DNA of 37,117 bases, from the NCBI GenBank assembly GCA_947588955.1, contig CANPYX010000025.1, positions 1 to 37,117 on the forward strand, given 5' to 3'. Under the pieces are notes generated by a model that was not told where the DNA came from, searched no databases, and was given only the letters and a program-made list of their open reading frames with translations. How positions within the stretch are numbered: the first letter of the stretch is position 1; every line of letters begins with the position of its first letter. This document shows positions 581 to 14,075 of the stretch, piece after piece. The DNA is from an uncultured Oscillospiraceae bacterium (GTDB taxonomy: Bacteria; Bacillota; Clostridia; Oscillospirales; Oscillospiraceae). A program made the position numbers and the translations under genes.

Positions 581-928
581 TCACCCAAGGACGCGGCGCC
601 AGTAGGTGAGGACTATGTAGAGGGCGAAGGCGTCGAAGGCGAGGTAGGCGAGGAAGCAGAGCCACAGGCCGAAGCGCGCCAGCGGGCGGCGGCGGAAGTG
701 GTAGAGGAGCCAGAGGGCGGCGGGGATCAGGACGAACTTCAGCCCCAGCGTGGCCCAGGGGGTGCCGAGGATGTTGCCAAGGAAGGGGTTCATCTCAAAG
801 CTCCCCGGAATGAGCCGGAGGCCCACGGTGGTGTAGATGAAGTCCAAAAGGCTTAAAATCTGCGTACCCACGGCGAGGGCCAGGTACAGGCGGCTTTTTG
901 AGCGTCGCGTTTTTACTTCCGGTGTCAT
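581..928 (-). CDS. DUF5658 family small membrane protein
   Basis: Codes for 115 residues starting MTPEVKTRRSKSR. The start at 928 is chosen because AAGGAG lies 7-8 bases upstream, and the longer frame up to 1321 runs through the antitoxin gene on the other strand. A basic N-terminus is followed by three or four hydrophobic helices. The first contains LLDFIYTTVGL and the following loop SFEMNPFLG, matching the 'D..xT...E.NP' pattern of DUF5658 proteins. Function is unknown; an integral membrane location is inferred. It is a single gene with a hairpin directly downstream. Confidence 0.7.
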   Translation of the reverse strand: MTPEVKTRRSKSRLYLALAVGTQILSLLDFIYTTVGLRLIPGSFEMNPFLGNILGTPWATLGLKFVLIPAALWLLYHFRRRPLARFGLWLCFLAYLAFDAFALYIVLTYWRRVLG

Positions 929-973
929 ACGCGGTCTCCTTGCGGCATAAAATGATGGGCGGCGTCTCAGGGC

Positions 974-1641: not shown

Positions 1642-2994
1642 TCATTCAGCGGTGGTGGCGGTGGGGGAGTAAGTCTCAAAGGTCACATAATCGGGCAAAA
1701 TGGCTAAGCTGCCCTGCTCATACTCACCAATTCTTTGTGTACCGTTTCCAGTGACACCCGCGGCAAGTATGTTGGAAAAATCTGTTGCGGTACTGCCAAT
1801 AACTCCCTCTACGTTGATAACGCCATTTTCACCCTTAGAGAGTGTGGCGCTGGATGAGTTTGTCCATCCGGCATTGTTGTATTTTGCCAGATACATATCA
1901 GCTGTATAGAAAAACATTTCTCCGTTTGACAAAATATTCAGGGTGCCTAAAACGTCGAGGCTAAAACCGGGAAGACATTTATACTTGTTGGCGATATTCA
2001 TTGTTGCACCACTGTTGATAACAGCTTTTGTATTATATCCAAACGGGCAGTAAAGATCGGCGCTGTCAAACTCATAAATTAAAGCGTTTAATTTTAAGCT
2101 GCCAGTTTGAATGGTGCAGTTGTTAAGAGTGAAGGTTTGCACGTTATTTGCACCGTATGTAAAAGTGATGTCGCCTGTACCTGAGATATTGTATATGCAC
2201 CCGGATGAGCTGCCAACCTCGGCGATGTAGGGAATCTCGACAGGAATCTCCTGGCTTGCGGCGTAAATATATGCCTGACCGTTCAAAACGGCGCCGCCCT
2301 TATAAATGGTAGTGCTTTCGATTCCGCCAAGAGAGTACAGGTTAAACGGGAAAACCCTGCGGTTGTAGGCCCTGAGTGACTGTGTGCCACCGCGCCAATC
2401 GGCAATTTGGAAGCGTTGGTACACTGTCCCAGTGTCGGCAACATTTATTTCGCCGCTACCGTACACACGCCCACGAGCGTAAAGTGTGCCGTTAACGGTC
2501 ATTTTCCCTCCATCCAGATTAAGTGCGCCATAATCTCCGCTGAGGAACCCGGTTCGAGGAACCTGGCTTTGCTGATTGCCGGCAACAATCAGAGTACCGT
2601 CAACTTCCAGAGTTAATCCCGTCGGAATCGTCAGTGTCGCAAAGGCTTTTCCTTCAGCGGGAGCTGCACCGTTATAATACTTAGCACCTTTTGTGTTTAG
2701 GTCGGCTGCGTAGTCAGTGCTGGTGGGAATGACGAGGGTAATAGTGCTTGGAATATTGAGGACGCCATCAGTTCCTACGGCTTTATAATTTGCGGTGAGA
2801 TACACAGTATCGACCTCAAGCTCAACCGCGGCTTCAAAGGCCTCTTCAAGTGTGTCAAACGGATAATACTCACCCTCGTATTCAAAAGTAGCAACGGGAC
2901 CTTCTTCTTGATCTGCGTATCCGCTTAGTATAAGGGAACACACCAGCGCAAAAGTGAGAATAACGGTTACTATTGGTTTACCTTTTTTAGACAT
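1642..2994 (-). CDS. Secreted, probably beta-helical surface protein
   Basis: A 450-residue protein with a classical signal peptide: MSKKGK, a hydrophobic stretch, and a likely cut after SGYA near residue 27. The mature part is rich in Asn, Thr, Gly and Tyr, with repeated short strands such as LTIPTGLTLEVDGTLIVAG and MTVNGTLYARG, suggesting a parallel beta-helix or autotransporter-like passenger. I see no sortase motif, SLH domain or catalytic motif. An AAGGAGG site is 8 bases before the ATG. It follows the prepilin-like gene on the same strand by 117 bases, and both are poorer in GC than their surroundings, so they probably came and are expressed together. Function unknown. Confidence 0.65.
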   Translation of the reverse strand: MSKKGKPIVTVILTFALVCSLILSGYADQEEGPVATFEYEGEYYPFDTLEEAFEAAVELEVDTVYLTANYKAVGTDGVLNIPSTITLVIPTSTDYAADLNTKGAKYYNGAAPAEGKAFATLTIPTGLTLEVDGTLIVAGNQQSQVPRTGFLSGDYGALNLDGGKMTVNGTLYARGRVYGSGEINVADTGTVYQRFQIADWRGGTQSLRAYNRRVFPFNLYSLGGIESTTIYKGGAVLNGQAYIYAASQEIPVEIPYIAEVGSSSGCIYNISGTGDITFTYGANNVQTFTLNNCTIQTGSLKLNALIYEFDSADLYCPFGYNTKAVINSGATMNIANKYKCLPGFSLDVLGTLNILSNGEMFFYTADMYLAKYNNAGWTNSSSATLSKGENGVINVEGVIGSTATDFSNILAAGVTGNGTQRIGEYEQGSLAILPDYVTFETYSPTATTAE

Positions 2995-3111: not shown

Positions 3112-4704
3112 TTAATGAACATTTACAGTTAAAGTAAGAGTTTTAACCCCTTTCGGGCCGGTAGCCGTAAGTTGAATCGTACAAGTACCTTTTTTGACAG
3201 CGGAGATAGTCAATCCGCTTATAGTAATGCAACTGCCGTCCCCACCCGTAACAGCGATACTTCCGTTGGTAACTCCTTCCAGTAGTTCCAGCGTGCAGGA
3301 ACCAGCGCTCTTGTTAATTGAGCAGATCTCTATTGTACTTACCTTCGCCCCTACCTTTGAGTCGCTTACCTTCTCAGTACTTCCTTTAAGAGCCCCTATT
3401 GTTGTGTTAGCTTCAACATAAACCCGATTGGTGTGAGTTGTTGTGCATTCCCCACCGGGTTCGTCAGGCTCAACAGGAGTAGGACTATTTGTTTCGTTAT
3501 CCTTCCTCGGATTTGCGGAATTAGGGTTAACTTTCAAAATCATTGTTCCGTCGCTGTTTCTCTTCGCCGTAATGGTTATGCCCTGAGTCCCGCTATTGAT
3601 AAACCTCTGGATATCGTCCAAATTTGAACTTCCGTCCATGACAGAACCCGCAAGAGAAACATAACCGCCAATAGCTTCGGCAAGCTCCTCATCGCTCGGT
3701 GTCTTCCCCTTGCTTGCATATTCATTGTATACAAGCCCGCCGCACTCCATAAGCGCCAAATATGCCTTTGCATCAGATTCAGCCTGGTCTGACAAATAAG
3801 TAGAAATTATGCCACTCCAGTCAGAAGAGTTCTCCCCTTTTACAAAAATGTCATTATTGAAAAACGACGTGGCAATCTTTTCGTGATTTGCCAACTGGTC
3901 AGCATAATTTTCAATGTCCGCAGCCAGCTTAGCATTTGAAGCAACAGTATCAAGCCTTTGTGCATAAGAGAGAAATGCATAGTTTCGGGCAAGCTCAAGA
4001 TCAAATCCGCTAAATTGTACACCAGGGACCTCACCGGCTATGGCAAAGTTACTTTTCCATGCGCGAACTACTGTATCAGCATCAATGTTGCCGCTACTGT
4101 ATCCTGCCAATATATGTCCCGTCATTGACTTTTCATCATATTTTGAAGGATCAATTTTGAGCGGTGTTCCACTTCCGTTTACATCAATCCCCTCAGACGT
4201 AAGAAGACTTGTTACATCCTTGTAAATTTCCCAATAATCAGAAAAATCTGAGGCAAAGGAAGCCTTGGGATGGTCATTTATGTGCGTCATATAAGAATCA
4301 AGACTGCCGCCTACCTTTTTAAGTTGAGCAATTATGTCTCCGTTTATACCGTTCCAATCATCGCTGGACAGCTTGACTGCGCTGATGTCGCCCATTGCAT
4401 CTTCAATCGCCGCTTTGACAGCAGAATTATTGGTAAATGTTCCTTTTGAAGTGACAAATACCGCCGTGGTTTCCCCATCTGCCAAAAGCTCAGGATTGGA
4501 ATACCCAGCAATGTCCAGCGCGTGCATGATTTCGCCCACGGTCTGCCTGTCCACGCCCTTGTGAGTGTAGTCTATGTACCCGTTATACGCCACAGCGCCG
4601 ACGCCCGCGAGAATGGCGAGGACGGCGATGACCACCACCAGCTCCACCAGCGTAAAGCCGGCGTCACCATAGCGGCGCTTAGGTTTTGAAGAATTTCTTT
4701 TCAT
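3112..4704 (-). CDS. Large prepilin-like surface protein with C-terminal Ig-like domain
   Basis: A 530-residue protein with a type IV prepilin N-terminus. A basic leader ending in Gly16 is followed by FTLVELVVVIAVLAILAG, with Glu at mature position 5, so prepilin peptidase processing after Gly16 is expected. Pilins are usually 120-200 residues, so this one is very large. A mainly helical middle (about 40-420) leads to a Pro/Glu linker (PTPVEPDEPGG) and a last ~80 residues with a bacterial Ig-like (BIG2) pattern. The ATG at 4704 has AGGAGG 8 bases upstream. No pilus assembly ATPase is in the window. Expression is probably controlled by the invertible promoter at 5111-5436. It may be an adhesin displayed on a pseudopilus. 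Confidence 0.7.
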   Translation of the reverse strand: MKRNSSKPKRRYGDAGFTLVELVVVIAVLAILAGVGAVAYNGYIDYTHKGVDRQTVGEIMHALDIAGYSNPELLADGETTAVFVTSKGTFTNNSAVKAAIEDAMGDISAVKLSSDDWNGINGDIIAQLKKVGGSLDSYMTHINDHPKASFASDFSDYWEIYKDVTSLLTSEGIDVNGSGTPLKIDPSKYDEKSMTGHILAGYSSGNIDADTVVRAWKSNFAIAGEVPGVQFSGFDLELARNYAFLSYAQRLDTVASNAKLAADIENYADQLANHEKIATSFFNNDIFVKGENSSDWSGIISTYLSDQAESDAKAYLALMECGGLVYNEYASKGKTPSDEELAEAIGGYVSLAGSVMDGSSNLDDIQRFINSGTQGITITAKRNSDGTMILKVNPNSANPRKDNETNSPTPVEPDEPGGECTTTHTNRVYVEANTTIGALKGSTEKVSDSKVGAKVSTIEICSINKSAGSCTLELLEGVTNGSIAVTGGDGSCITISGLTISAVKKGTCTIQLTATGPKGVKTLTLTVNVH

Positions 4705-5107
4705 CTGATTAAACCTCCTGAAAATAGTTTCGGACGCGCCCTGGGCGCCCGGATTTTCCCTCATACGCTTTGGAGCGGAGGGATGAAAGATATATGTAAA
4801 GGTCCGCGGAGGCTCTCCGCGTTCCGGTCCAGCCGCCTCTTTCCGGGCGGCGATGTGGCAGCGAATGAACACCTTTACCCCCTAAAATAAAGGCAGGATG
4901 TGACCATACGTTCACACCCTGAGCATTGCCGTATTCTGCTTGATTCACAAGACCGCCAGAGAGTAGGCGGCATCGGCAACGCCCCATATCTACCACTGAC
5001 GTGCCGAGGCTTTTTTCCAATTCTGAGGCGGAGCGTGAATTTCTCCGTCAAAATGAACAAAAACGCCGCGGCTGATTTCGATGACCTGCCCCTCCCCACC
5101 GGGTTAC
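4705..5107 (-). ncRNA. Long structured 5' leader or RNA upstream of the prepilin-like gene
   Basis: About 400 bases without a convincing gene, read here on the minus strand. Helices, given by plus-strand positions: 4974-4982 with 4923-4931 (9 bp, one G-U) closing a junction that holds 4966-4970/4953-4957 and 4948-4951/4939-4942; then 4912-4921 with 4894-4903 (10 bp); then 4888-4893 with 4872-4877. Further GC hairpins follow toward the gene. This density of consecutive helices suggests a riboswitch or other folded RNA. I could not match it to a known class, and it lacks the conserved c-di-GMP-I (GEMM) core. Small minus-strand frames here look like by-products of the RNA. Confidence 0.45.
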
Positions 5108-5131
5108 GAAACATTATAGATATAATGTTTC
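5108..5131. repeat. Left inverted repeat of the invertible segment
   Basis: A near-perfect palindrome: 11-bp arms (5108-5118 and 5121-5131) around a central GA. The inner 18 bases (5111-5128) are identical to the reverse complement of 5419-5436. Short symmetric arms around a small asymmetric centre are typical of tyrosine recombinase core sites. The GA/TC centre gives the site its direction. Confidence 0.75.
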
Positions 5132-5161
5132 ACTCGGCTTAACTCGAAGGGTGTCGAAGGC

Positions 5162-5190
5162 TCCCCCGGACGGCGTTCCGGGGCTTTTCT
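5162..5190 (+). terminator. Terminator 1 inside the invertible segment
   Basis: A GC stem (CCCCGGA with TCCGGGG around a 6-base loop) is followed by CTTTTC on the plus strand. It changes strand with the inversion. In the ON state it would stop transcripts coming from the recombinase side. Confidence 0.6.
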
Positions 5191-5225
5191 CGTCTTTACA
5201 CTTTGACGAATTAAACACTTTTGGG

Positions 5226-5298
5226 CACGCCGCGACGCGCTCTCCGCTGTTCCGTTTTTTGGAACCAGTCCGAGAGCGTGTCGCGGCGTGTCTTTTTT
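5226..5298 (+). terminator. Terminator 2 inside the invertible segment
   Basis: A strong stem of about 17 pairs (5226-5243 with 5273-5290, one mismatch) is followed by TCTTTTTT. It lies about 45 bases before the promoter at 5341 and shields it from upstream transcription in either orientation. Confidence 0.75.
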
Positions 5299-5340
5299 AT
5301 GTATCCGGAAGAAATTTTCATCGAAATTTCTCATCGACTC

Positions 5341-5368
5341 TTGACAATTTGTTCAAATCGTCTATAAT
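5341..5368 (+). promoter_or_regulatory. Consensus sigma-A promoter inside the invertible segment
   Basis: TTGACA (5341-5346) and TATAAT (5363-5368) match both consensus hexamers with a 16-base spacer. In the present orientation the only thing downstream is the antisense strand of the recombinase gene. No plus-strand gene follows, which supports the idea that its real target is reached only after inversion. Confidence 0.85.
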
Positions 5369-5417
5369 GGGGAATGAAGAATTTCGTGAGGCTTGCGCTT
5401 TCCCGCCGGACGTGCGT

Positions 5418-5437
5418 GACATTATATCTATAATGTC
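5418..5437. repeat. Right inverted repeat of the invertible segment
   Basis: A perfect palindrome with 9-bp arms (5418-5426, 5429-5437) around TC. Bases 5419-5436 are the exact reverse complement of 5111-5128. It ends 3 bases before the recombinase stop codon. Confidence 0.75.
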
Positions 5438-5440
5438 CGC

Positions 5441-6331
5441 TTATTTTTTTGCCCTTTTTCCTCTCCCGCGCCTTTTCACGCGGGGAGGATTTTTCATTTT
5501 CGGCGCCAACCCCAGGGCGTTCACGAGCTTTCTATGCTCCGCGCCGCTGGACTTGGTGTAAATGCGGGTCGTCTCAATGCTGCTGTGGCCCAGAACGTCC
5601 GCCAGCTTCACCACGTCATGGTTGGCCTCGTAAAACGTCCGGGCGAAGAGCTTGCGGAGATTGTGCGGGAACGCTTTCGCGGCCCGGACTTTTGCGCGGA
5701 ACGCCGCCCGCTTCATAATGGCCCAGACACGCCCTCGGCTCAGGGGCTTTCCCTTACTCCCAAGAAATATTGCGCCGGAGGTGATGCCCTCGCTTTCCGC
5801 GTACTCCTCCAGCTCCCGTCCGATGTCGTCGGGGACCATGATTCGCCGCGTCTTCCGCTTGCAGGTCACCAGAATTTCCCGACCCTTCACGGCCTCCAGC
5901 GTGAAAAAAGCCAGCTCCGAAACACGAATCCCTGTGGAGCAAATCGTAGCAATAATAAGCCTGTCCCGCCCTTTTGCGGCGTCCAAAAGCGCCTCGTAGT
6001 CCGTTCGCGTAAGCTCCCGTTCCTCCGGGCAGTAGGCATCCCTCTGAATGACCAGCCGCTGTGTCCGGCAGTCCTCCCAGCCCGTAAATTTGAAGAACGC
6101 AAAGAGGGATTCGAGGATCGTGTTGACGCTGCCGGGCCTGTAGCCCTTTTCAATCAGCTCTCTCTTGAACCTCCCCGTCTCCTCCCCGCTGGACTCCCGC
6201 CCGTCAAGAAAAACGGCGTAGGCGCGAACGTCATGGAGATACCTGCCGATGGTGTGGGGGCTTCGCTCGTGCAAAACGAGGTCTGCCTCGAAACCGGAGA
6301 CGGCCTCCGGGGTGATAATGCGAGTGTCCAT
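5441..6331 (-). CDS. Tyrosine recombinase, probable invertase of the adjacent switch
   Basis: A 296-residue XerC/D-like recombinase. An N-terminal SAM-like DNA-binding domain (about 10-90) is followed by the catalytic domain with all expected residues: Arg136 (TGIRVSEL), a Lys near 158-160, His223 and Arg226 (PHNLR), His249 (LGHSS) and the nucleophile Tyr258 (RIYTK). A basic tail, RRGRGKRAKK, ends the protein. The ATG at 6331 is preceded by AAGGAGG at 6 bases. The gene ends 3 bases from the right inverted repeat at 5418-5437 and is convergent with the switch promoter. A chromosomal Xer role is less likely given the location and paired sites. Confidence 0.85.
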   Translation of the reverse strand: MDTRIITPEAVSGFEADLVLHERSPHTIGRYLHDVRAYAVFLDGRESSGEETGRFKRELIEKGYRPGSVNTILESLFAFFKFTGWEDCRTQRLVIQRDAYCPEERELTRTDYEALLDAAKGRDRLIIATICSTGIRVSELAFFTLEAVKGREILVTCKRKTRRIMVPDDIGRELEEYAESEGITSGAIFLGSKGKPLSRGRVWAIMKRAAFRAKVRAAKAFPHNLRKLFARTFYEANHDVVKLADVLGHSSIETTRIYTKSSGAEHRKLVNALGLAPKMKNPPRVKRRGRGKRAKK

Positions 6332-6507
6332 GTTGTGCCTCCTTAAAAAGTGTAGATGTATTTTGCCCGAAAAGGGCGCAGTCAATCTATCACTCTAAAT
6401 GAGGGGACAGTCAAGGAATTGTTCGCGTTTTGTGTGTAAAAACCTCATAATATAAGTTTTTTGACGGTTTCCGATTACACGAAGACCGCCCTTATCTCAT
6501 CCAAAAA

Positions 6508-6551
6508 AAGCGGTCATCGCAACGCCCGTGTTGGCATTGTGATGACCGCTT
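6508..6551 (-). terminator. Terminator of the small XRE regulator gene
   Basis: A 15-bp stem with one G-U pair (6508-6522 with 6537-6551) is followed on the minus strand by seven T. It lies 15 bases after the stop of the regulator gene. Confidence 0.85.
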
Positions 6552-6565
6552 CCGTTCGATTCATA

Positions 6566-6808
6566 TCAGCACGCGATCTTGCTGATCTGCGTCTCCCTCA
6601 CATTTGGCTCCTCCGGCTCTTCAAAAAACTCTCCCATCGTGACACCCAAGCCCTGGCAGAGCCTGTACAGCGTTTCCACCGTTAGCTGATTGCCCCGCTG
6701 ACGCGCCGCTTTTATTGTTGAATAGGGCACGCCGCTAACCTTCGCCAATTGGTAGAGGGACATATTACGTCCTTCAGTCAATTCAAGAACCCGATCCATT
6801 GTGTTCAC
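6566..6808 (-). CDS. Small XRE-family helix-turn-helix regulator
   Basis: An 80-residue Cro/CI-type protein: LYQLAKVSGVPYSTIKAAR gives the helix-turn-helix, followed by VETLYRLCQGLGVTMGEFF, typical of the single-domain XRE group. The start is GTG at 6808, with AGGAGG 8 bases upstream; the internal ATG three codons later lacks a well-placed site. It probably binds DNA as a dimer in control of the neighbouring mobile region. It lies on the same strand as the LexA-like repressor, 56 bases downstream of it, and has its own terminator. Confidence 0.8.
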   Translation of the reverse strand: MNTMDRVLELTEGRNMSLYQLAKVSGVPYSTIKAARQRGNQLTVETLYRLCQGLGVTMGEFFEEPEEPNVRETQISKIAC

Positions 6809-6864
6809 CGTCGCAACCTCCTGTTCAAAATAATAAAGAAGAACGGCCGATAAGGTGATCCGCC

Positions 6865-7716
6865 TCAGTTCAAAACTTGACCGACCACCCGAAACATCGC
6901 CTGCGGAGATACCTGAATGGGAGCGTATGCCGGATTATACGATATAAGCAGCGGCTGAGGACGAAGGACGCCGTTGCTGTCCACAAAGCCCTCCCTGTCC
7001 GGTTCCTCCGGCTCCCGCTCACCGTACTTTTTTAAATATCCGTTCCCGTCATATACAAAAATGCCTATATCGCCGGGGAGAAGTGTTTCGCAACGCTTTA
7101 CCCATACGATCTGACCGTCATGGTAGACCGGCTCCATGCTGTCACCATGTACCCGTACCCCAAAGTCGGCATTCGACGGAACTGCGGATACCGGAAAAGA
7201 TACCTTTTCAAACCCGCCTTCGTCGAGAATATTGCCGGTCCCCGCCGATGCCTCCAGGAGGCTTATATCCATTTCAATAGTTTCCTCATTATCTGCGCAT
7301 ACCGGCCTTTGCCTGTAAAGCCCCGTGGCGATAAGATCCGCCTTGTATTCCGCCACTTTTTTCAGTCCTGTTTCGTTCAGCTCCTCGCCAAGCCCTGGCT
7401 CCTGAGTAAAATACGCAATGCCGTCTTCTATCCCAAGAGCATGGCATATAGCGATCAGCTGGTAAGCATTTGGCACTGACCCGCCCGTCTCCCATTTCCA
7501 TACTCCCGGACGGTGAACAGAAAGACCGTGCTGTGAAAGCAGCTCCGCAAACGCCGGAAGACTCAGCCCCCGCGACATCCTCGCCTGCTGGATCCTTCTG
7601 CCTATTACGTTGTTCTCCCGCTCCTTTACCGAGTCATAAAACTCCTTCTTGCAGGGAAACACGGTAATAGTCTTTCCCGCCTTATTGGATATTGAATAAT
7701 TCTTCCTTTCCGCCAT
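6865..7716 (-). CDS. LexA/CI-like repressor (XRE plus S24 peptidase domains)
   Basis: A 283-residue protein. An XRE helix-turn-helix (about 36-100) is joined to a C-terminal S24 self-cleavage domain with Ser193 in VHGDSMEPVYHDG and Lys229 in GYLKKYG, the catalytic dyad. Ala158-Gly159 in the linker is a plausible cleavage point. Such proteins keep phages and integrative elements silent and inactivate themselves after DNA damage. The ATG at 7716 has a GAGGGGG site 8 bases upstream. The gene is divergent from an ImmA/IrrE-type protease gene across a two-promoter region, recalling ImmR-ImmA control of ICEBs1, although ImmR lacks an S24 domain. Two inactivation routes may coexist here. Confidence 0.85.
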   Translation of the reverse strand: MAERKNYSISNKAGKTITVFPCKKEFYDSVKERENNVIGRRIQQARMSRGLSLPAFAELLSQHGLSVHRPGVWKWETGGSVPNAYQLIAICHALGIEDGIAYFTQEPGLGEELNETGLKKVAEYKADLIATGLYRQRPVCADNEETIEMDISLLEASAGTGNILDEGGFEKVSFPVSAVPSNADFGVRVHGDSMEPVYHDGQIVWVKRCETLLPGDIGIFVYDGNGYLKKYGEREPEEPDREGFVDSNGVLRPQPLLISYNPAYAPIQVSPQAMFRVVGQVLN

Positions 7717-7741
7717 AACAGCACCCCCTCGTATATAAGGG

Positions 7742-7833
7742 ATTATATACTGCAAGATATTGTCTGTCAAGAAAAACTTTAACTATTAGGTTGCAAATGC
7801 GTCCTTGACAGTTACTAATAGTTGAATTATAAT
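7742..7833. promoter_or_regulatory. Divergent promoters with shared operator (repressor / protease)
   Basis: Leftward promoter: TTGACA (complement of 7765-7770), 17 bases, TATAAT (complement of 7742-7747). Rightward promoter: TTGACA (7805-7810), 17 bases, TATAAT (7828-7833). Both are perfect. The inverted repeat AACTATTAG (7781-7789) / CTAATAGTT (7815-7823) places one arm upstream of the left -35 and the other inside the right promoter spacer, as expected for a repressor that shuts both. Confidence 0.85.
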
Positions 7834-7900
7834 TCGTGCCATAGAAACGTACTGCCAAGAAATGGCGGGACATTTTATATTTGTAACAGGAGGGGTCGTC

Positions 7901-8629
7901 ATGGTTTTATCTTACGACATGATAGAGGCATACGCCATCTGCTTTTTGGACGCCTTCAGGCGGCGATGCCATGTGGAGATGAATCCCGCCAGGCGCAGAT
8001 CCGCCAGAGCAACACCTATCGAACAATTCGCGGAGCAGTATCTGGAGCTGGAGCTTAAGTATACACAGCTCTCCGGAATCGGCGATGTGTTGGGGCTTAC
8101 GGCGTATGCGGACACCGAATACAAATATACAGAGAACGGAATTGAGAGGACTATACCGTTGTTGAAAAGCCAGGTGCTTCTGGACACAAGCCTTGCCCCA
8201 AACCTGTACAGGGATGCAAATCGAAATCGGCGCAGATTCACCATCGCCCACGAGTGCGCCCACCAGATCCTCTTCCGCATGGAGAACGCGGAGAACCGGG
8301 AGGTGTGTCAAAAGCTGTACTCCATGGGGGAACCATACTCACTGCGGGATCTCAAGACCCGAGAGGACTGGAACGAGTGGCAGGCCAACGCCCTTGCTGC
8401 CGCGCTGCTTATGCCCTGCGAGGAGATAAAGCGTTCCATCGGACACCGCCCCAATGAGCTTGTATGCTATGAAGGACGGTTCACCGCAATGGACAAGTAT
8501 GACCTTGATTCTCTCTGCAATTCCCTTCTGGTCTCCCGGCAGGCGATGATCATCCGTCTTCGCCAGCTTGGTTATCTGATAGACCGGCCTGTCCATGAAT
8601 TTTATGACCCACTGGAGGTGATGGTATGA
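7901..8629 (+). CDS. ImmA/IrrE family metallo-endopeptidase
   Basis: A 242-residue protein with the zinc motif His117-Glu-Cys-Ala-His121 in FTIAHECAHQ and a downstream EWQANALAAALLMP segment that supplies the third ligand in the family. ImmA cuts the element's repressor upon damage or cell signals; IrrE acts similarly in Deinococcus. I prefer the ATG at 7901 (AGGAGGGG 7 bases upstream) to the frame's earlier ATG at 7862, which has no ribosome site. Cut target is probably the divergent repressor at 6865-7716, which is inference. The stop overlaps the next start by 4 bases (ATGA). Confidence 0.85.
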   Translation: MVLSYDMIEAYAICFLDAFRRRCHVEMNPARRRSARATPIEQFAEQYLELELKYTQLSGIGDVLGLTAYADTEYKYTENGIERTIPLLKSQVLLDTSLAPNLYRDANRNRRRFTIAHECAHQILFRMENAENREVCQKLYSMGEPYSLRDLKTREDWNEWQANALAAALLMPCEEIKRSIGHRPNELVCYEGRFTAMDKYDLDSLCNSLLVSRQAMIIRLRQLGYLIDRPVHEFYDPLEVMV

Positions 8630-8904
8630 GCGCGAGACGCAGAAAGATACGACCGGCAGACATCCCTGAGCCCTTGAAGGAGAAAATGATACACGCCATT
8701 GAGGACACCCAGGAGTTGTCCTCCCGCTATATGCTATGCCCCTATTGCAAGCACCCGGTGATGATGGCGTACTCTGACGCCAAGGGGCATTTCAGCAACA
8801 AATGTCCCAAATGTGGGCGTATCACGATTTTTGACGCGGCGAGTATGCGCAGAGCAAGTCCGCAGCCGTGTCCATCGCCCGGTTATACATACCGGCAAGT
8901 ATGA
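8626..8904 (+). CDS. Small zinc-ribbon protein
   Basis: A 92-residue protein with two CxxC knuckles, Cys38-Cys41 (CPYC) and Cys60-Cys63 (CPKC), a classic zinc ribbon. The N-terminus is basic. Its start overlaps the protease stop (ATGA), so the two are coupled and probably work in one process. The C-terminal 20 residues are poorly structured. Zinc ribbons of this size bind nucleic acid or protein partners. No enzyme activity is implied. Confidence 0.65.
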   Translation: MSARRRKIRPADIPEPLKEKMIHAIEDTQELSSRYMLCPYCKHPVMMAYSDAKGHFSNKCPKCGRITIFDAASMRRASPQPCPSPGYTYRQV

Positions 8905-8952
8905 GCTTTTCCTGAAAATTGAATGAGCAGAGCCCTGGAGCCGCCTGATGGC

Positions 8953-9045
8953 GTAGACATCCTATGTGCCGCATGAGTTGAGGAATCTCACCGGATTCCT
9001 TGAATTTATCGGTACAGGACTGTCTACCCTCATGCGGCTCTTTTT
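8953..9045 (+). terminator. Terminator with crossing helices (possible attenuator)
   Basis: GCCGCATGAG (8968-8977) pairs with CTCATGCGGC (9029-9038) and is followed by TCTTTTT, an intrinsic terminator with a large loop. The loop holds a 7-bp hairpin (8981-8987 with 8994-9000). GTAGACA (8953-8959) can pair with TGTCTAC (9021-9027), which crosses the terminator stem. This allows either a pseudoknot or two exclusive folds. It lies between the zinc-ribbon and sigma-like genes. Confidence 0.65.
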
Positions 9046-9080
9046 ACGTCCTTCCCGCTCCACGGCGGAAAGGACGTAAA
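9043..9080. repeat. Strong hairpin after the terminator
   Basis: TTTACGTCCTT (9043-9053) pairs with AAGGACGTAAA (9070-9080), with a GC extension inside. Its left arm overlaps the T run of the preceding terminator, so the two structures compete. Function unknown. Confidence 0.6.
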
Positions 9081-9113
9081 TGTTTATCTGGCTTGCTTAT
9101 ATAGCGAAATACC

Positions 9114-9162
9114 CGTGATCTCCCTCGTTTTCCCCAAACCGAAAACGAGAAAGGAGATCACG
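9114..9162 (+). promoter_or_regulatory. Hairpin masking the ribosome site of the sigma-like gene
   Basis: CGTGATCTCC (9114-9123) pairs with GGAGATCACG (9153-9162), and CTCGTTTTC (9124-9132) with GAAAACGAG (9141-9149). This gives 19 pairs with a 3-base bulge and an 8-base loop. The ribosome site AAGGAG falls inside the right arm. Unless the hairpin is opened, initiation at 9166 should be blocked. Confidence 0.7.
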
Positions 9163-9165
9163 AAA

Positions 9166-9723
9166 TTGAAAAAAACGCAATATCTGCTTTTGAAGAAGCA
9201 GCCTGACGGATCGGTACGGCTCGAAGCCGTAACGCAAAGCGAGTGGAACGAGACGTTGTCCGCAAACCGCCTTGTATCGGCTGACCAGCGCCGTCATTTC
9301 ATCGTGGACTGTATAGAGGACGGCAATGATCTGGACTGTATGTACATTGAGGTCTCGCCGCAGGAGCATCGAAGCTGGAACATTGGAAACACCATGCGCC
9401 AGAAAAACCGAAAGCGTGGTCAAGATTATACCTTCCTGCCTATTGACGCTTCTATCCGAGAGGATCTTGCCACTATACAAGATTCCTTGGTCTCTGATTG
9501 TGACCTTGAGCGACTGGCAACGGATAACGTTCTGATGGATGAGTTGAGAAAAGCCTTGAAAGCATGGAAGCCGTGGGCCGAAGAACTATTGGATCTTTAC
9601 ATAAGCGGTGAAAAACATGCTTGCACCCCTTATCTCTGCAGAAAGCATAAGCTTGGGAGAAGCTCTATCCAGAAGCGGAAATCTCAGTTTGAAAAATTTA
9701 TTTTAGATTTTTTGAAAAAATAA
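9166..9723 (+). CDS. Sigma-like / HTH protein of a mobile element
   Basis: A 185-residue protein beginning KKTQYLLLKKQPDGS after a TTG start, which is 10 bases from AAGGAG. The upstream ATG at 9115 lies inside the masking hairpin and lacks a site. The last ~45 residues (LCRKHKLGRSSIQKRKSQFEKFI) look like a sigma-70 region 4 or similar helix-turn-helix. Charged, helical text precedes it. Small sigma-like proteins of this length are frequent in clostridial integrative elements, where they lie next to excision and replication genes. I cannot assign a precise family. Expression is probably limited by the 9114-9162 hairpin. Confidence 0.55.
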   Translation: MKKTQYLLLKKQPDGSVRLEAVTQSEWNETLSANRLVSADQRRHFIVDCIEDGNDLDCMYIEVSPQEHRSWNIGNTMRQKNRKRGQDYTFLPIDASIREDLATIQDSLVSDCDLERLATDNVLMDELRKALKAWKPWAEELLDLYISGEKHACTPYLCRKHKLGRSSIQKRKSQFEKFILDFLKK

Positions 9724-9762
9724 TTCCACTTTGAGGCCCTGCGAGTTGTGGTAATAGAAGTG

Positions 9763-10178
9763 TAGGGGTAAACAGCCCCTCACCGCTCTTTGACAATTTC
9801 ATATCCGGCAACTGGATAACTTTAGCGGACGGTCCCCGAAAGGGACAGCGGCGGGCGGATGCGCCAAGACCTTCCTGTGCAGACTTCTGCATAAAAAGAC
9901 GGCCTTTAAGGAAGCGAGCGTGTACCCATCCGAACCGCACCGGCTTTGGCAAGCCGCGCCATGACCCCGTCCGCCTACAATGATACCCCTGCCCAGCCAC
10001 AGACTCAAGCAATGGGGGCAGCTCGGAGAGATCCTCGGAGGGGTGAGATTCCCGGAGTGTGACGCCAGTCGCAGTCCAGTTGTACGCCCTTGGCTTCGGG
10101 AAGTAGTGTCGAATGGAAGCCGTAAGAAGAAAGCATCAAAACACAACCAAGGGGCCGCTCTGTCTGAACGGCCCCTTT
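9763..10178 (+). ncRNA. Candidate structured non-coding RNA, about 400 bases
   Basis: No believable gene is present between 9724 and 10274. A 5-bp hairpin (about 9763-9780) follows the sigma-like gene, then TTGACA at 9790-9795 with only a poor -10. Small hairpins follow, such as GTCCCCGAAAGGGAC near 9830-9845 and GCAG/CTGC near 9880. The block ends with a terminator (10149-10157 paired with 10169-10177, then TTT). A promoter-like box, dense hairpins and a terminator suggest a stable RNA of the element. I do not recognise the class. It could also hold an origin or transfer site. Confidence 0.4.
10149..10178 (+). terminator. Terminator ending the non-coding block
   Basis: AAGGGGCCG (10149-10157) pairs with CGGCCCCTT (10169-10177) around an 11-base loop, ending in TTT. 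It separates the non-coding block from the metallophosphoesterase gene. Confidence 0.65.
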
Positions 10179-10211
10179 CAAAGAATATTCCTCTCCGCAA
10201 ATCTTTTGATG

Positions 10212-10254
10212 GCTATTCCGACAAAACTGTGGTATTGTGTGTTGCTGTCAAAAG
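10212..10254 (+). promoter_or_regulatory. Motif shared with the integrase upstream region, copy 1
   Basis: GCTATTCC (10212-10219), 8 bases, TGTGGTAT (10228-10235), then TGTCAA 10 bases on. The same words with the same first spacing occur at 14002-14039 before the integrase gene. A shared promoter or regulator site is possible. Neither copy fits the sigma-A consensus well. Confidence 0.4.
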
Positions 10255-10274
10255 ACACGAACGGAGGGAGAAAA

Positions 10275-11021
10275 ATGCTATTCTGCACAGGAGATACCCA
10301 CGGGGATTTCGACCGCTTCAAGCTGCGGTTCTTCCCGGAGCGGGAAACCATGGACCGCAGCGACTTTGTCCTCATCTGCGGTGACTTCGGCGGCCTGTGG
10401 TTCGGCACGACACTGGACGACATGGCCCTCGACTGGCTGGAGGCTCTGCCCTTCACCACGCTTTTCGCAGACGGTAACCATGAAAATTATGACCTCCTCT
10501 ATAAGCTCCCTGTGGAGCATTGGAACGGAGGCAAGGTCCATCGACTCCGGCCCCATGTGCTCCACCTCATGCGCGGACAGGTCTTCAACATTGACGGCCG
10601 CACCTTCTTCACCATGGGCGGCGCCAGCTCCCACGATGTGCAGGACGGGATATTGGACAGGGACGATCCTGAATTTGACCTCAAGTACTATTACCTTCGC
10701 CGTGAACACGCTCGTTTCCGCATAAACCATGAAAGCTGGTGGAAGGAGGAGCTTCCCTGTGATGAGGAGTACGCCGAGGCCATAGAGAATTTGGCGAAAG
10801 CCAATCATCAGGTAGACTTCATCATCACCCACTGCGCTCCGTCGAGCGTTGAGGACATCATCGGCAAATCCACATACATACATGACCGCCTGACAGACTT
10901 CTTGGAGGAGGTCGATCATACGGTTACGTTCCGCCATTGGTACTGCGGACATTACCATATGAACAAGGAGATCAACAGCAAATTCACAGTCCTGTACAAG
11001 AACGTCGTGCAGGTCATATAA
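10275..11021 (+). CDS. Calcineurin-like metallophosphoesterase
   Basis: A 248-residue protein with the family's metal-binding blocks in order: GDTHGD (6-11), GDFGG (36-40), GNHE (67-70), THCAPSS, and GHYH near the C-terminus. These coordinate two metal ions for phosphoester cleavage. The substrate is not predictable. The ATG at 10275 has GGAGGGAG 5-6 bases upstream; the longer frame from 10113 runs back through a terminator and is rejected. Similar single-domain phosphoesterases are common cargo in clostridial integrative elements. It is followed by its own terminator. Confidence 0.85.
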   Translation: MLFCTGDTHGDFDRFKLRFFPERETMDRSDFVLICGDFGGLWFGTTLDDMALDWLEALPFTTLFADGNHENYDLLYKLPVEHWNGGKVHRLRPHVLHLMRGQVFNIDGRTFFTMGGASSHDVQDGILDRDDPEFDLKYYYLRREHARFRINHESWWKEELPCDEEYAEAIENLAKANHQVDFIITHCAPSSVEDIIGKSTYIHDRLTDFLEEVDHTVTFRHWYCGHYHMNKEINSKFTVLYKNVVQVI

Positions 11022-11043
11022 GAAAAAAAGAATCTATAGGAAA

Positions 11044-11069
11044 GAGGACGGAGCCATCCGTCCTCTTTT
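11044..11069 (+). terminator. Terminator of the metallophosphoesterase gene
   Basis: GAGGACG (11044-11050) pairs with CGTCCTC (11060-11066), extended inward by G-C and A-T pairs, and is followed by TTTTG. It starts 22 bases after the stop codon. Confidence 0.75.
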
Positions 11070-11099
11070 GTGCTGAAAAATAGGAAAAGAGAGATTTAT

Positions 11100-11669
11100 A
11101 TGAAGCATAAAATCAGTACGGATTGCAGATTGTGTACGGACTACCGAGCCTGCCGCAAGGGCAGCAAAGACATATGCCCTTGGGACAGGGAGCGAATCGA
11201 GGCAGAAGATATGAGCTACAGGAACGCCATCCAAGAAACGCTGAATCTCGGAGAAAAACTTGACCCGCGTCTTGAAAAGCTGGTCAGCAGCTTCACCGGA
11301 ATGTGGAAAGACGAAGCACACTCACTCAGAATGAAGACCGCAAGAGAAATGACATCTACCTCCGCTGAGATCGATGACCCTCCGTACAACGCCGCGCTCT
11401 ACCTTCTGACCTCCAGCTACAACCTGTTTGCCAGGGCCATCGATTGCTTTCAGCACGATGGTCTCCATCTGGACCGCGCCCGCCTTTGTCATATCTGGTA
11501 CCGAGACTACGCAATATATCTGGCCGCGTGGAACATCTATCACGGGGAAAGGCAAGTCCTGACGGAACGAGCGCTCAAGCACGTTACGAACGACACGGAT
11601 CTGGCGTTTATCGTCAACGCTCTCATCATTGCCAGGCTCGGTCCCGCTGCGTTTGACCTCAAACGATGA
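11100..11669 (+). CDS. Unknown cysteine-containing protein coupled to MazF
   Basis: A 189-residue protein I do not recognise. The N-terminus has Cys pairs (CRLCTDYRACRKGSKDICPW), possibly a metal site. The middle is charged and helical, and the last half is rich in aromatic and aliphatic residues. The ATG at 11100 follows a weak AAAGAGAG site; a GTG ten codons earlier is possible. Its stop overlaps the mazF start by 4 bases (ATGA), so the two are translated together. That is the position normally taken by the MazE antitoxin, but this protein is far larger than MazE and has no AbrB-like start. Whether it counteracts MazF is open. Confidence 0.55.
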   Translation: MKHKISTDCRLCTDYRACRKGSKDICPWDRERIEAEDMSYRNAIQETLNLGEKLDPRLEKLVSSFTGMWKDEAHSLRMKTAREMTSTSAEIDDPPYNAALYLLTSSYNLFARAIDCFQHDGLHLDRARLCHIWYRDYAIYLAAWNIYHGERQVLTERALKHVTNDTDLAFIVNALIIARLGPAAFDLKR

Positions 11670-12025
11670 GAAGAAATGAAATATGGTCCATCCGGCGAGG
11701 AGACATCTTCTATGCCGACCTGCGCCCCGTCCGTGGCTGTGAGCAGGGCGGCATCCGCCCCGTGCTGATCCTTCAAAACAACACGGGCAACAAGCACAGC
11801 CCCACGGTCATAGCGGCGGCCATCACTACCAGCCGAACGAAGACAAACTTGCCGACCCATGTGCCGTTGGACAGTCTACCTCAGTTGAGATGCGATTCAA
11901 CAGTGCTGTTGGAGCAGATCAGAACCATAGACAAGCGCCGCCTGCTGGAGTGGGTCTGTGCAGCTACCCCGGAGATCATGGACAAAGTGGATGCCGCCCT
12001 CGCCATCAGCGTCGGCGGCGATTGA
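11666..12025 (+). CDS. mazF: MazF/PemK-type endoribonuclease toxin
   Basis: A 119-residue protein close to B. subtilis MazF (NdoA) in sequence: RRGDIFYADLRPVRGCEQGG, RPVLILQNNTGN, TVIAAAITT, LEQIRTIDKRRL. The residues equivalent to Arg25 and Thr48 of B. subtilis MazF are Arg31 and Thr54. Such enzymes cut single-stranded mRNA at short sequences, independently of the ribosome. The gene begins inside the stop of the 189-residue unknown gene, and no MazE-like gene is seen on either side. An extra six or so residues at the N-terminus are the only length difference. Confidence 0.9.
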   Translation: MRRNEIWSIRRGDIFYADLRPVRGCEQGGIRPVLILQNNTGNKHSPTVIAAAITTSRTKTNLPTHVPLDSLPQLRCDSTVLLEQIRTIDKRRLLEWVCAATPEIMDKVDAALAISVGGD

Positions 12026-12044
12026 CATCTAACAGGAGGAGAAA

Positions 12045-12272
12045 ATGCTTACATTTATCATAGGAATGATGGTCGGCGGTATCGTCGGCTTTTTTGCTTT
12101 CTGTTTGCTGACCGCGGGCAAGGACAGCGACAGGTACACGGAACCTGAGAAGTACAACCTCTTAGAGAAATCTCAGGCCACAACGGTTACAAATACCTTC
12201 ACGGATGACAGCAGAAGAAGACAGGGAACTGCGAATGCAAAGCAAAATCTTTATGGAAGTGACAGGACATGA
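12045..12272 (+). CDS. DUF3789-like small membrane protein
   Basis: A 75-residue protein with one N-terminal membrane helix (LTFIIGMMVGGIVGFFAFC) and a charged, flexible tail. The start matches DUF3789, tiny membrane proteins often found in clostridial conjugative elements just before regulatory or excisionase genes. AGGAGGAG is 5 bases before the ATG. Its stop overlaps the excisionase start by 4 bases. The tail is longer than usual for the family. Function unknown. Confidence 0.6.
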   Translation: MLTFIIGMMVGGIVGFFAFCLLTAGKDSDRYTEPEKYNLLEKSQATTVTNTFTDDSRRRQGTANAKQNLYGSDRT

Positions 12273-12454
12273 AGAAGCGTATGTTTGAAAGCTATCCGGA
12301 TGTAGTTACCGTCAATGAGCTTTGTGAAATGCTGGGAATCAGCAAAAAGCTGGCCTACCGGATCCTTGACAGACAGGATATCAGAAGCGTCAGGGTGGGG
12401 CGAATTTACAGGATTCCAAAGTCGGCGGTAATTGACTATCTCACAGACGAATGA
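12269..12454 (+). CDS. Excisionase-like helix-turn-helix protein
   Basis: A 61-residue MerR-like winged helix protein: VTVNELCEMLGISKKLAYRIL, then VRVGRIYRIPKSAVIDYL, the HTH_17/excisionase pattern. Such proteins bend att-site DNA and steer the integrase toward excision. The start overlaps the preceding stop (ATGA). Directly downstream is a truncated copy of the integrase gene rather than the intact gene, which is 1.6 kb further on. This implies the xis-int unit was split by insertion. Confidence 0.75.
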   Translation: MKKRMFESYPDVVTVNELCEMLGISKKLAYRILDRQDIRSVRVGRIYRIPKSAVIDYLTDE

Positions 12455-12477
12455 AAGTTAATAATTCATGTTTTCCG

Positions 12478-12667
12478 ATGGATAGCCACCGGCCTGCCTG
12501 TGGAGGGCACAAGTATCAGAAAAGCTCAAAAGGCATTTGACCAGATCAGGGTATCCTACGAGAAGATTGAGGAGGAACAGCTTATATGGCTTATCCTCCC
12601 CACCGGCATTGGACACTCATTGTATCGGGTGACGTTGCACAAATCTGGCTTTACAGGAGAATACTAA
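12478..12667 (+). pseudogene. Truncated int copy (5' fragment)
   Basis: Bases 12478-12583 match 14159-14264 of the intact integrase gene at 103 of 106 positions (WIATGLPVEGTSIRKAQKAF and following). Identity stops abruptly after GAACAGCTT. The frame then runs on with unrelated codons to a TAA at 12665. The fragment has no start codon of its own in place. It marks a recombination or insertion event between two int copies. Confidence 0.85.
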
Positions 12668-12687
12668 AAAGAAACTCTCAGAACCTA

Positions 12688-12728
12688 TTGCATATTTGTC
12701 CCGAATAATATATAATATTCAGGACAAA
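12688..12728 (+). promoter_or_regulatory. Promoter and operator of the AbiE-type module
   Basis: TTGCAT (12688-12693), 17 bases, TATAAT (12711-12716). A perfect inverted repeat TTTGTCC (12695-12701) / GGACAAA (12722-12728) brackets the -10. Antitoxins of AbiE systems repress their own promoter through such repeats, so this is probably the operator. Confidence 0.75.
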
Positions 12729-12742
12729 AGGAGGCAAGCAAA

Positions 12743-13447
12743 ATGACGAATGGGTATTCCCGGCAGATACAGGAACGGATCGGCACCGCAGCAGACGGAA
12801 CAGTTTTCGTCGGTTCCGACTTTGCGGATATTGCGGATACGGAAACCATACGGCGAAACCTGAACCGTTTGACGCAGGCAGGGACACTTCGGCGGATCCT
12901 GCGGGGCGTTTATGAAAAGCCGGAATACAGCGAAATGCTGAAAGAATATGTGGCAGCAGACCCGGAGGCCGTAGCGAAAGCTCTGGCCCGCAATTATCAC
13001 TGGACGATTGCGCCTTGCGGGAATACCGCTTTGAACCTGCTGGGACTGTCCACGCAGGTCACGGCGGTGTGGTCCTACATCAGTGACGGGCCCTATAAGA
13101 CGTATAGCTGGAACAACACAAAGCTGGAGTTCAAACATCGGACAAATAAGGAGATCACGGGACTTTCCTACATGACGATCCTGGTTATTCAGGCATTGAA
13201 AACCCTGGGACGGGAAAACGTCACTTCCAAGACGGTCAGGGTCCTCCAATCACGGTTAAGCGATGATGACAAAACTACCATGCTACAGGAGGCGGCAGCG
13301 TCTACGGATTGGGTCTATGATACGATACGGCAGATTGCCAGATCCGGCTACACTGCAGGTGATCCGACTGGAGATTGGCGCACTGGCCGCATGGACGGTG
13401 GAATCGGAGCGGACATTTTGGGAAAAGGCTACGATCCTTCACCATGA
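12743..13447 (+). CDS. DUF6088 / AbiEi-like antitoxin, with a foreign C-terminal tail
   Basis: A 234-residue frame. Residues 1 to about 200 match the DUF6088 group related to AbiEi antitoxins: a winged-helix start (VGSDFADIADTETIRRNL, RRILRGVYEKPEYSE), then IAPCGNTALNLLGLSTQV and WSYISDGPYKTYSW. The last ~35 residues read out of frame through toxin-gene sequence, because a deletion joined the two genes. AGGAGG is 10 bases before the ATG. The DNA-binding and autorepression part is complete, so the protein may still act as a repressor or as an antitoxin against a related toxin elsewhere. Confidence 0.75.
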   Translation: MTNGYSRQIQERIGTAADGTVFVGSDFADIADTETIRRNLNRLTQAGTLRRILRGVYEKPEYSEMLKEYVAADPEAVAKALARNYHWTIAPCGNTALNLLGLSTQVTAVWSYISDGPYKTYSWNNTKLEFKHRTNKEITGLSYMTILVIQALKTLGRENVTSKTVRVLQSRLSDDDKTTMLQEAAASTDWVYDTIRQIARSGYTAGDPTGDWRTGRMDGGIGADILGKGYDPSP

Positions 13448-13787
13448 GGCCAACCGGCCGGAGCATCTGGCAATGCCAAGCCGGTATTCCAGACATTATT
13501 ATGACCTGTACCGCATGGCGCAGACGCCTGTAAAGGACGTCGCTTTTGCCAGGCTGGATTTGCTGAAAAAGGTGGTGGATTTCAAAATGAAATTCTATCC
13601 GAGGGCATGGGCCAAATACGCCGAGGCTGTCCCCGGCACCCTGAAGCTGACACCGCCGGAGTACCGGCTGGATGAGTTGGGGGCGGAATGTGACGCAATG
13701 AGGGATATGCTGTATGGCGACATCCCATCTTTCGCTGCCATTCTGGACGGCGTAAAGGTGCTGGAGCAGCAGATTAACGCACTATAA
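13353..13787 (+). pseudogene. 3' remnant of an AbiEii-family nucleotidyltransferase toxin gene
   Basis: From 13353 the frame reads LQVIRLEIGALAAWT, then ERTFWEKATILHHEANRPEH, SRHYYDLYRMAQTPVKD and on to a TAA at 13785. These are C-terminal blocks of AbiEii toxins of the large (~340-residue) type. The N-terminal nucleotidyltransferase domain with its GSxxD-type site is absent. The usual ~40 residues between the 'EIGxLAxW' and 'ERTFWEK' blocks are also missing. Two deletions have therefore killed the toxin. Codons upstream of 13353 in this frame overlap the antitoxin gene and are not homologous. Confidence 0.8.
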
Positions 13788-13808
13788 TTACATATCATCA
13801 AGCCAGAG

Positions 13809-13849
13809 ATCCCGGTTATTCTGTTTTTCAGAATGCCGGGATTTTTCTA
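13809..13849 (+). terminator. Terminator after the AbiE remnant
   Basis: ATCCCGG (13809-13815) pairs with CCGGGAT (13836-13842), with an inner ATTCTG/CAGAAT helix, and is followed by TTTTTCT. It is intact and closes the antitoxin transcript. Confidence 0.8.
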
Positions 13850-13861
13850 TCTACAAGGAGG

Positions 13862-13964
13862 GATGCCTTATCACACAGAATGAAGTCAACGAAGTCTTTA
13901 TCGAGCAGGCCGGGTTTTCGGAATCCCCAAGACGGCAGTTATTGATTACCTTGTCGGCGAATGA
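13862..13964 (+). pseudogene. Decayed second excisionase-like fragment
   Basis: The end reads IPKTAVIDYLVGE then TGA at 13962, parallel to IPKSAVIDYLTDE at the end of the intact excisionase at 12269-12454. Upstream codons (TQNEVNEVFIEQAG) are a faint, frameshifted trace of the helix-turn-helix. An AAGGAGG sits at 13855-13861. The nucleotide identity is lower than for the int fragment, so this is an older or separately derived copy. Confidence 0.6.
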
Positions 13965-14001
13965 CTCACAAAAAAGTTGAGATTCTTCAATTGTTGTAAT
14001 A

Positions 14002-14039
14002 GCTATTCCTCAAAAGTTGTGGTATGTTTGTACTGTCAA
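14002..14039 (+). promoter_or_regulatory. Motif shared with the metallophosphoesterase upstream region, copy 2
   Basis: GCTATTCC (14002-14009), 8 bases, TGTGGTAT (14018-14025), 8 bases, TGTCAA. It matches 10212-10254 and lies about 40 bases before the integrase ribosome site. See that entry for the comparison. Confidence 0.4.
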
Positions 14040-14075
14040 CGGCAGGAAAGCGGCCAAATCAAGGAGGTAAAAATA

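Follow-up and report, generated by a model that had tools for sequence, protein, structure and literature searches.

The stretch of DNA analysed here (the window) is a complete contig of 37,117 nucleotides (CANPYX010000025.1 of assembly GCA_947588955.1; G000:C25 in our numbering) from an uncultured Oscillospiraceae bacterium, whose genome, G000, amounts to 2.56 Mb in 58 contigs. It carries a promoter-bearing segment bounded by inverted repeats, with a gene for a tyrosine recombinase on one side and, on the other, genes for a prepilin-like protein and a secreted protein (Table 1). An earlier note, made from the sequence alone, had proposed that this segment is an invertible promoter that switches the two surface genes, and the analysis below follows up that proposal.

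Table 1. Features of the candidate switch and its flanking genes in the window
Feature	Coordinates	Strand	Remarks
DUF5658 membrane protein	581..964	-	cluster members in 7 of 26 loci, window included
Secreted protein, predicted beta-rich	1642..2994	-	no Pfam or NCBIfam match
Prepilin-like protein, 530 aa	3112..4704	-	N_methyl PF07963
Leader arm 2, CCGGTGGGGAGGGGCAGGTC...	5075..5102	-	outside distal site; inversion needed for pairing with arm 1
Distal (pilin-side) recombination site, ACATTATAGATATAATGT	5111..5128	+	18-bp inverted repeat
Terminator-like hairpin	5164..5183	+	upstream of promoter, from terminator scan
Long hairpin, then TCTTTTTT	5223..5293 (within 5222-5300)	+	upstream of promoter; fold -56.4 kcal/mol
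Promoter TTGACA-16-TATAAT	5341..5368	+	12/12 consensus; aimed at recombinase 3' end (OFF) as assembled
Conserved leader arm 1, GAAGAATTTCGTGAGGCTTGCGCTTTCCCGCCGG	5376..5409	+	just 3' of promoter; opens ON transcript after inversion
Proximal (recombinase-side) recombination site	5419..5436	-	exact inverted copy of distal site
Tyrosine recombinase, presumed invertase	5441..6331	-	Phage_integrase PF00589, E 5.1e-25

The architecture described in the earlier note largely stands. The two 18-bp repeats are exact inverted copies of one another spaced 290 bp apart, and each is near-palindromic around an asymmetric GA/TC centre, as claimed. Five inverted 14-mer seeds spaced 60-400 bp were found in the window, against a mean of 0.25 and a maximum of 2 in 20 Markov-2 resamplings, one 18-bp pair alone yielding those five seeds. 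The consensus promoter is also present within the segment, although with three promoters of 12/12 consensus in the whole 37 kb it is not unique there. Both proposed terminators were recovered, one by the terminator scan and the second as a far longer hairpin which, with the TCTTTTTT that follows it, is probably a terminator or insulator upstream of the promoter. The complete tyrosine recombinase gene does lie beside the right-hand repeat, but four bases, rather than the three reported, separate the repeat from its stop codon. The prepilin-like and signal-peptide-like genes are as the note gave them, and so is the length of the leader, about 470 nt, that a flipped promoter would place in front of the prepilin-like gene, whose start codon sits 406 bases outside the distal site. 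No coding sequence of a variable gene lies within the segment, as it would in a shufflon, and an Rfam search of positions 4500-6700 gave no match up to E=1.

The same module recurs in relatives. A search with the recombinase, covering 60 relatives, led to 40 stretches, which were examined in two sets of 20 together with seven further loci. Complete switches, each with paired ACATTAT-nnnn-ATAATGT sites beside the recombinase, number 26 in eight genomes: the window, 16 of the 20 stretches of the first set, eight of the 20 of the second and one of the seven added loci (L090). Genome G024 has 12 of them, G019 four, G016 three, and G002 and G032 two each, with one apiece in G000, G031 and the genome of L090. 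Loci cut by contig ends (L048, L052, L056, L099, L102, L105-L107, L109, L113 and L114) were left uncounted; L108 has one exact site with an imperfect partner, and L057, L110, L111 and L112 bear other repeats in place of the shared site. Among the added loci, L088, L089, L091 and L092 duplicate contigs already counted, L093 has another repeat and L094 is cut. A prepilin-like gene is found next to the switch in all 25 complete switches whose contig continues (the contig of the 26th, L095, stops 3 bases past the site), and all 26 segments contain a promoter with 10-12 of the 12 consensus positions. We also looked among the examined stretches for loci that keep the recombinase and surface gene and have lost the repeats, the finding that the earlier note had said would refute it; no such locus was seen, and every recombinase at least ~49% identical to that of the window, with its 3' flank uncut, has paired repeats (the second site of L108 being imperfect). 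The named relatives are Oscillospiraceae and Clostridia assembled from metagenomes. For six of the seven added loci the isolate name begins with 'Lapin', the French for rabbit, from which we infer a rabbit-gut origin.

A survey of the genus found the site pattern in 7 of 34 genomes (reversed control, 0), as +/- pairs ~230-310 bp apart save in contigs that end there, and in an order-wide sample it occurs in 3 of 394 genomes (G000, G024 and G042). G042 belongs to another family, and its contigs with related recombinases (L105, L106, L107, L109 and L114) break off at the site or just short of it, which suggests that repeated or mixed-orientation switches disrupted the assembly there.

As assembled, the promoter points towards the recombinase (OFF) in 22 of the 26 switches and towards the prepilin gene (ON) in four (L043, L044, L098 and L090); the window and its counterpart in a sister species, L038, are both OFF. 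Relatives carrying the flipped form, for which the earlier note had called, were found in three comparisons with L098. Between the window and L098 the 300-nt leader flank is 95% identical, and the inner segment is 93% identical when flipped as against 50% unflipped. L055 and L098 are collinear by blastn on both flanks and match in reverse, at 97.3%, between the sites alone. L056, a second copy in the window's own genome, is reversed relative to L098 over the 81 bases that it retains. The window's genome also holds a second type of switch (188 bp, ACAAAATAATCATTTTGCC), of which the two copies, L111 and L112, have flanks 95% and 96% identical and opposite orientations, the inner segment being 97% identical flipped and 47% unflipped. 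The segment thus occurs in both orientations between conserved flanks, among homologous loci, and these opposite orientations among homologues and paralogues indicate that inversion has happened repeatedly.

A third type of switch was noted in the same genome at L057 (G000:C32) and L110 (G000:C13), which have 259-bp segments with ACAAAATTnCTATTTTGT repeats and related recombinases; in both the promoter faces the recombinase and the switch lies upstream of genes for signal-peptide-like proteins.

Inversion has a further predicted effect, on the leader of the transcript. Two conserved leader elements, one inside the segment and one beyond the distal site, are brought together only in the orientation in which the promoter points at the prepilin gene, and the resulting ON leader is predicted to fold into a long hairpin, with z at or below -4.5 in 24 of 25 loci and minimum free energies (MFE) of -41.9 to -65.1. 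The hairpin is present in the assembled, natively ON leaders of L098 (z -6.6), L090 (z -6.8) and L044 (z -7.3). In a covariation alignment of 16 of these 25 loci 97.0% of the cells are paired, against 90.8% in shuffles, of which 0 of 500 reach the observed value, and pairing drops to 46-52% when the arms are slid. The outer stem in these loci comprises 178 Watson-Crick pairs, 68 G.U, one A.C and four others; the excess of G.U over A.C indicates that substitutions are tolerated if pairing is kept in the ON-strand RNA. We take this pattern of substitution as evidence, independent of how many switches are assembled in each orientation, for transcription of the flipped state and selection on it, and the conservation of RNA pairing in the ON leader strengthens the link to the prepilin. 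The ON hairpin was not seen on leader folding of the other switch types, L111/L112 and L057/L110.

The recombinase of the window has an open reading frame 98% identical to its sister-species counterpart. Residues R136, K158, H223, R226, H249 and Y258, which we take to be the catalytic R..K..HxxR..H..Y set of a tyrosine recombinase, are invariant across the 26 recombinases, including that of the window. Its best match in the PDB is the XerC-like 4a8e, and it misses the NCBIfam cut-offs for XerA (128.3 against 220 bits), XerD (99.6 against 329.6) and XerC (99 against 335.15). In the 26 loci the 3' end of the recombinase gene ranges from 14 bases inside the proximal site to 51 bases short of it. 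Among distant relatives (L012-L028, E<1e-60) an inverted repeat of at least 13 bp lies on the 3' side in 13 of the 16 with a full 3' flank (L018, L023 and L025 failing), whereas none of the 16 has one exceeding 10 bp on the 5' side; L012 is cut, L011 is cut and was dropped, and L010 was dropped because it is the L055 locus. None of five much weaker relatives (L029-L033) has a repeat longer than 10 bp on either side. On these counts the recombinase clade is tied to segments of the invertible type.

The product of the prepilin-like gene has the N-methylation motif GFTLVE followed by a hydrophobic helix, as in type IV pilins, and its predicted structure (mean predicted local distance difference test score, pLDDT, 77.7) comprises an N-methylation head, a helical region and a C-terminal beta domain. 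The secreted protein is predicted to be beta-rich; Foldseek gave its model one weak match, to the TibA fragment 4q1q (E 3.8e-4, template modelling (TM) score 0.16), which we read as a sign of beta-rich structure and nothing more. Eight of the 26 loci, the window among them, have a homologue of this protein after the prepilin. No terminator was found between the two genes on that strand, and the switch may control the second gene also.

Over the 45 residues that start at GFTLVE, eleven prepilins of G024 are on average 74% identical (minimum 53%); past this conserved head the figure is 21% (11-35%). Between the window and L038, blastn identity is 97.3% over positions 4514-6439 and 99.7% over 6434-7388; between roughly codon 63 of the prepilin and the end of the secreted-protein gene there is no match of 60 bp or more, and a 97.1% match then covers 1508-1645, at the start of the L038 contig. 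The prepilins of the two species are 32% identical and the secreted proteins 31%. Five loci of G024 have identical 294-bp segments, with 0 variable columns, against 32 in the next 260 bp towards the recombinase, and L042 and L097 share identical segments although their recombinases are only 56% identical. Identical segments beside divergent sequence would therefore point to exchange or conversion of switches among loci.

Cognate machinery is encoded in the same genome. PilB, PilT, PilC and the prepilin peptidase PilD were identified by Pfam on G000:C37, in a complete-looking type IV pilus operon (L111:848-17524) that follows a gene for an SLH protein, and this machine would presumably handle the prepilin of the window. 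The operon sits behind its own recombinase and the 188-bp switch L111, in the ON orientation, and the same recombinase and switch are visible before a contig end in G019 (L151). The pilB gene of G024 is downstream of the ON pilin switch L043, and in G016 a pilin switch is near the pilus operon on the opposite strand; no recombinase was found upstream of the pilus operon in the examined stretches of G002, G011, G031 and G032. PilB (E<=1e-150) is present in 6 of the 7 site-bearing genomes of the genus against 1 of the 27 others (p=3.5e-5, uncorrected for phylogeny). In the seventh site-bearer, G019, one contig opens with a PilT-like fragment, and G011 has PilB in the absence of the sites. The switch of G019 that matches L111 (L151, G019:C56, ~3862-4117) seemingly has one more repeat, set off by a short spacer, as a partial duplication would leave.

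From the module's conservation, the opposite orientations among relatives and paralogues, the RNA-type covariation, the variability of the pilins and the pilus operon, all apparent from sequence comparison, we consider it very probable that the window holds a site-specific promoter inversion switch (inverton) which toggles the prepilin operon and belongs to a family of switches varying the pilus prepilin. In this strain the adjacent tyrosine recombinase would recombine the two 18-bp sites and flip the 326-bp segment. In the assembled orientation the promoter points at the 3' end of the recombinase gene and the pilin operon would be OFF, with antisense transcription into the recombinase gene offering possible feedback. 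Once flipped, the promoter would transcribe the prepilin-like gene and probably the secreted-protein gene, and the new junction would give the mRNA a long 5' hairpin which, from general knowledge of such hairpins, may stabilise or otherwise license the message. The hairpins upstream of the promoter would insulate the operon from read-through from the recombinase gene, and the family as a whole would vary which large, hypervariable prepilin the type IV pilus machine displays. We put forward more tentatively, as something a little short of an even prospect, that this amounts to antigenic variation of type IV pili in a commensal. The promoters of up to a dozen or more scattered prepilin loci, each with its own recombinase but all with one shared site, might flip independently or in trans, inversion building a leader hairpin that protects the mRNA; the switch and leader might be homogenised while the pilin tail and secreted partner are swapped as a cassette. 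The machine operon of this genome itself stands behind a related switch.

Several observations weigh against this interpretation. The opposite orientations come from homologous loci and not from one strain, and the L098 recombinase is only 54% identical to that of the window. Foldseek matches to the pilin model were weak, with none at E<=0.001, and G042 has the site and an N_methyl prepilin fragment with no T2SSE ATPase over the cut-off. In six loci (L039-L042, L096 and L097) the promoter matches only 10/12 of the consensus, four of them have a 9/12 match on the other strand too, and their orientation was called from the conserved downstream block. Transcripts directed towards the recombinase also fold, with z at or below -4.5 in 7 of 25 loci and at or below -6 in 7 of 25, L043 and L044 among them. 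L043, whose promoter faces the pilin, lacks a leader hairpin (z -0.9, MFE -30.8), and both L043 and L044 fold strongly on the recombinase side. In the second switch type, L111 and L112 likewise fold on the recombinase side (z -4.0 and -3.5) and not on the ON side (1.2 and 0.7). The covariation alignment has 16 rows, 15 of them flipped in silico, and it left out L043 and L044, the worst fit to the leader model, and seven identical or near-identical rows. In L043 and L044, both of G024, an outer leader arm apparently lies on the recombinase side, so that the logic of the hairpin looks mirrored relative to the other loci.

The preponderance of OFF assemblies, and the OFF state of both the window and L038, would also be expected of a relic whose promoter inverted in ancestors and is now locked, its recombinase or sites having decayed. 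Yet the sites of the window are exact, the catalytic residues invariant and the recombinase open and closely conserved in the sister species; L098 is ON with nearly the same promoter and leader, and the arms retain their RNA pairing, so that we regard a locked switch as very unlikely. Slighter still is the chance that the recombinase is the integrase of a mobile element, with the repeats as its attachment or binding sites and the pilin as a bystander. The phage integrase profile phrog_216 matches it, a repressor-like S24 gene lies less than 1 kb upstream and a second integrase is ~8-9 kb off. Nevertheless, the end of the recombinase is fixed near the proximal site in 26 loci, and the prepilin is constant wherever sequence continues while the genes downstream otherwise differ; we rate the phage-integrase explanation low because the module is conserved. 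No relative of the recombinase was confirmed in IMG/VR, where the 18-mer was found in 12 contigs with one site apiece, taken as chance occurrences.

Two further explanations concern the hairpin. It may reflect a need at the level of DNA, as recombinase accessory arms or duplicated site arms, and would bias inversion to leave the outer arm behind the promoter. We read the arms as direct repeats beside each site when the switch is OFF and, with L043 and L044 counted by arm and not by gene, just two of the 25 loci, L098 and L090, are clearly paired (L044 folds on both sides). The strand asymmetry of G.U over A.C in the outer stem fits ON-strand RNA instead, and a long near-palindrome could itself bias assembly against the paired state; a DNA-level role seems to us rather unlikely. 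Alternatively, the hairpin could act as a terminator or attenuator, leaving the flipped state repressed too unless some factor acts, and a precedent exists in Clostridioides difficile cwpV, where the OFF transcript is proposed to acquire a terminator through inversion (PMC2784873). By our reading of the leaders, however, no U-run directly follows the stem, and in L039-L042 and L096-L097 the stem is just upstream of a GGAGG ribosome-binding site; we regard termination or attenuation as improbable.

The fim switch of Escherichia coli controls a chaperone-usher pilus, and in Moraxella bovis the pilin genes themselves invert. The Moraxella system, like the window, alters pilin by DNA inversion, whereas in the window only the promoter segment inverts. 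That system is cited by title in PMC11868660 and PMC5903667. In fim the promoter lies in a ~300-bp segment with the recombinases FimB and FimE encoded nearby (PMC5903667, PMC2784873), which, with the pilus as target, resembles the window; fim, however, has two recombinases, whereas here each locus has a single one, a genome carries many loci, the genes beside the switches encode type IV prepilins and the ON leader has a hairpin. The RecV-dependent cwpV and flagellar switches of C. difficile share with the window the class Clostridia, a site-specific recombinase and an inversion that alters the RNA leader (PMC2784873, PMC7446863), but in cwpV the promoter is outside the inverted region, the proposed terminator hairpin belongs to the OFF transcript and recV is remote (PMC2784873), while the window family has its promoter inside the segment and its hairpin in the ON leader. 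Bacteroides fragilis Mpi likewise acts on many surface-structure switches in one genome (at least 13 invertible regions), with a single serine recombinase for all (PMC5903667) as against a tyrosine recombinase at each locus here. Among gut Clostridia of the hCom2 community, inverton group 139 with invertase group 35 (32 of 33 members Clostridia) has inverted repeats adjoining a tyrosine recombinase, as in the window (PMC11892184). Unlike the prepilin setting of the window, the main text of that paper contains no occurrence of pilus, pili or pilin. Among the matches listed in our literature search, as titles and abstract openings, none dealt with promoter inversion at type IV prepilin genes of Oscillospiraceae or with inversion that builds a leader hairpin.

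If this interpretation is correct, type IV pilin display in uncultured Oscillospiraceae would follow a heritable code of ON and OFF states at multiple loci, which metagenome reads could reveal. A leader hairpin formed only by inversion would be a testable second layer of control and would provide a criterion, from sequence only, for the functional ON orientation of an inverton. One site common to many loci also raises the testable question of cross-talk between recombinases.

Elsewhere in the window, a Phd/YefM antitoxin and YoeB toxin pair (Pfam; 1037-1568, +) lies between the secreted-protein and DUF5658 genes. Positions 6566-15305, likely a mobile-element remnant, encode an HTH protein, an S24 peptidase/repressor, an IrrE-like protein, a PemK/MazF-like toxin, DUF6088 and a phage-type integrase. 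At the other end of the contig (34155-37007, +) is a gene for a 950-aa SLH-domain surface protein.
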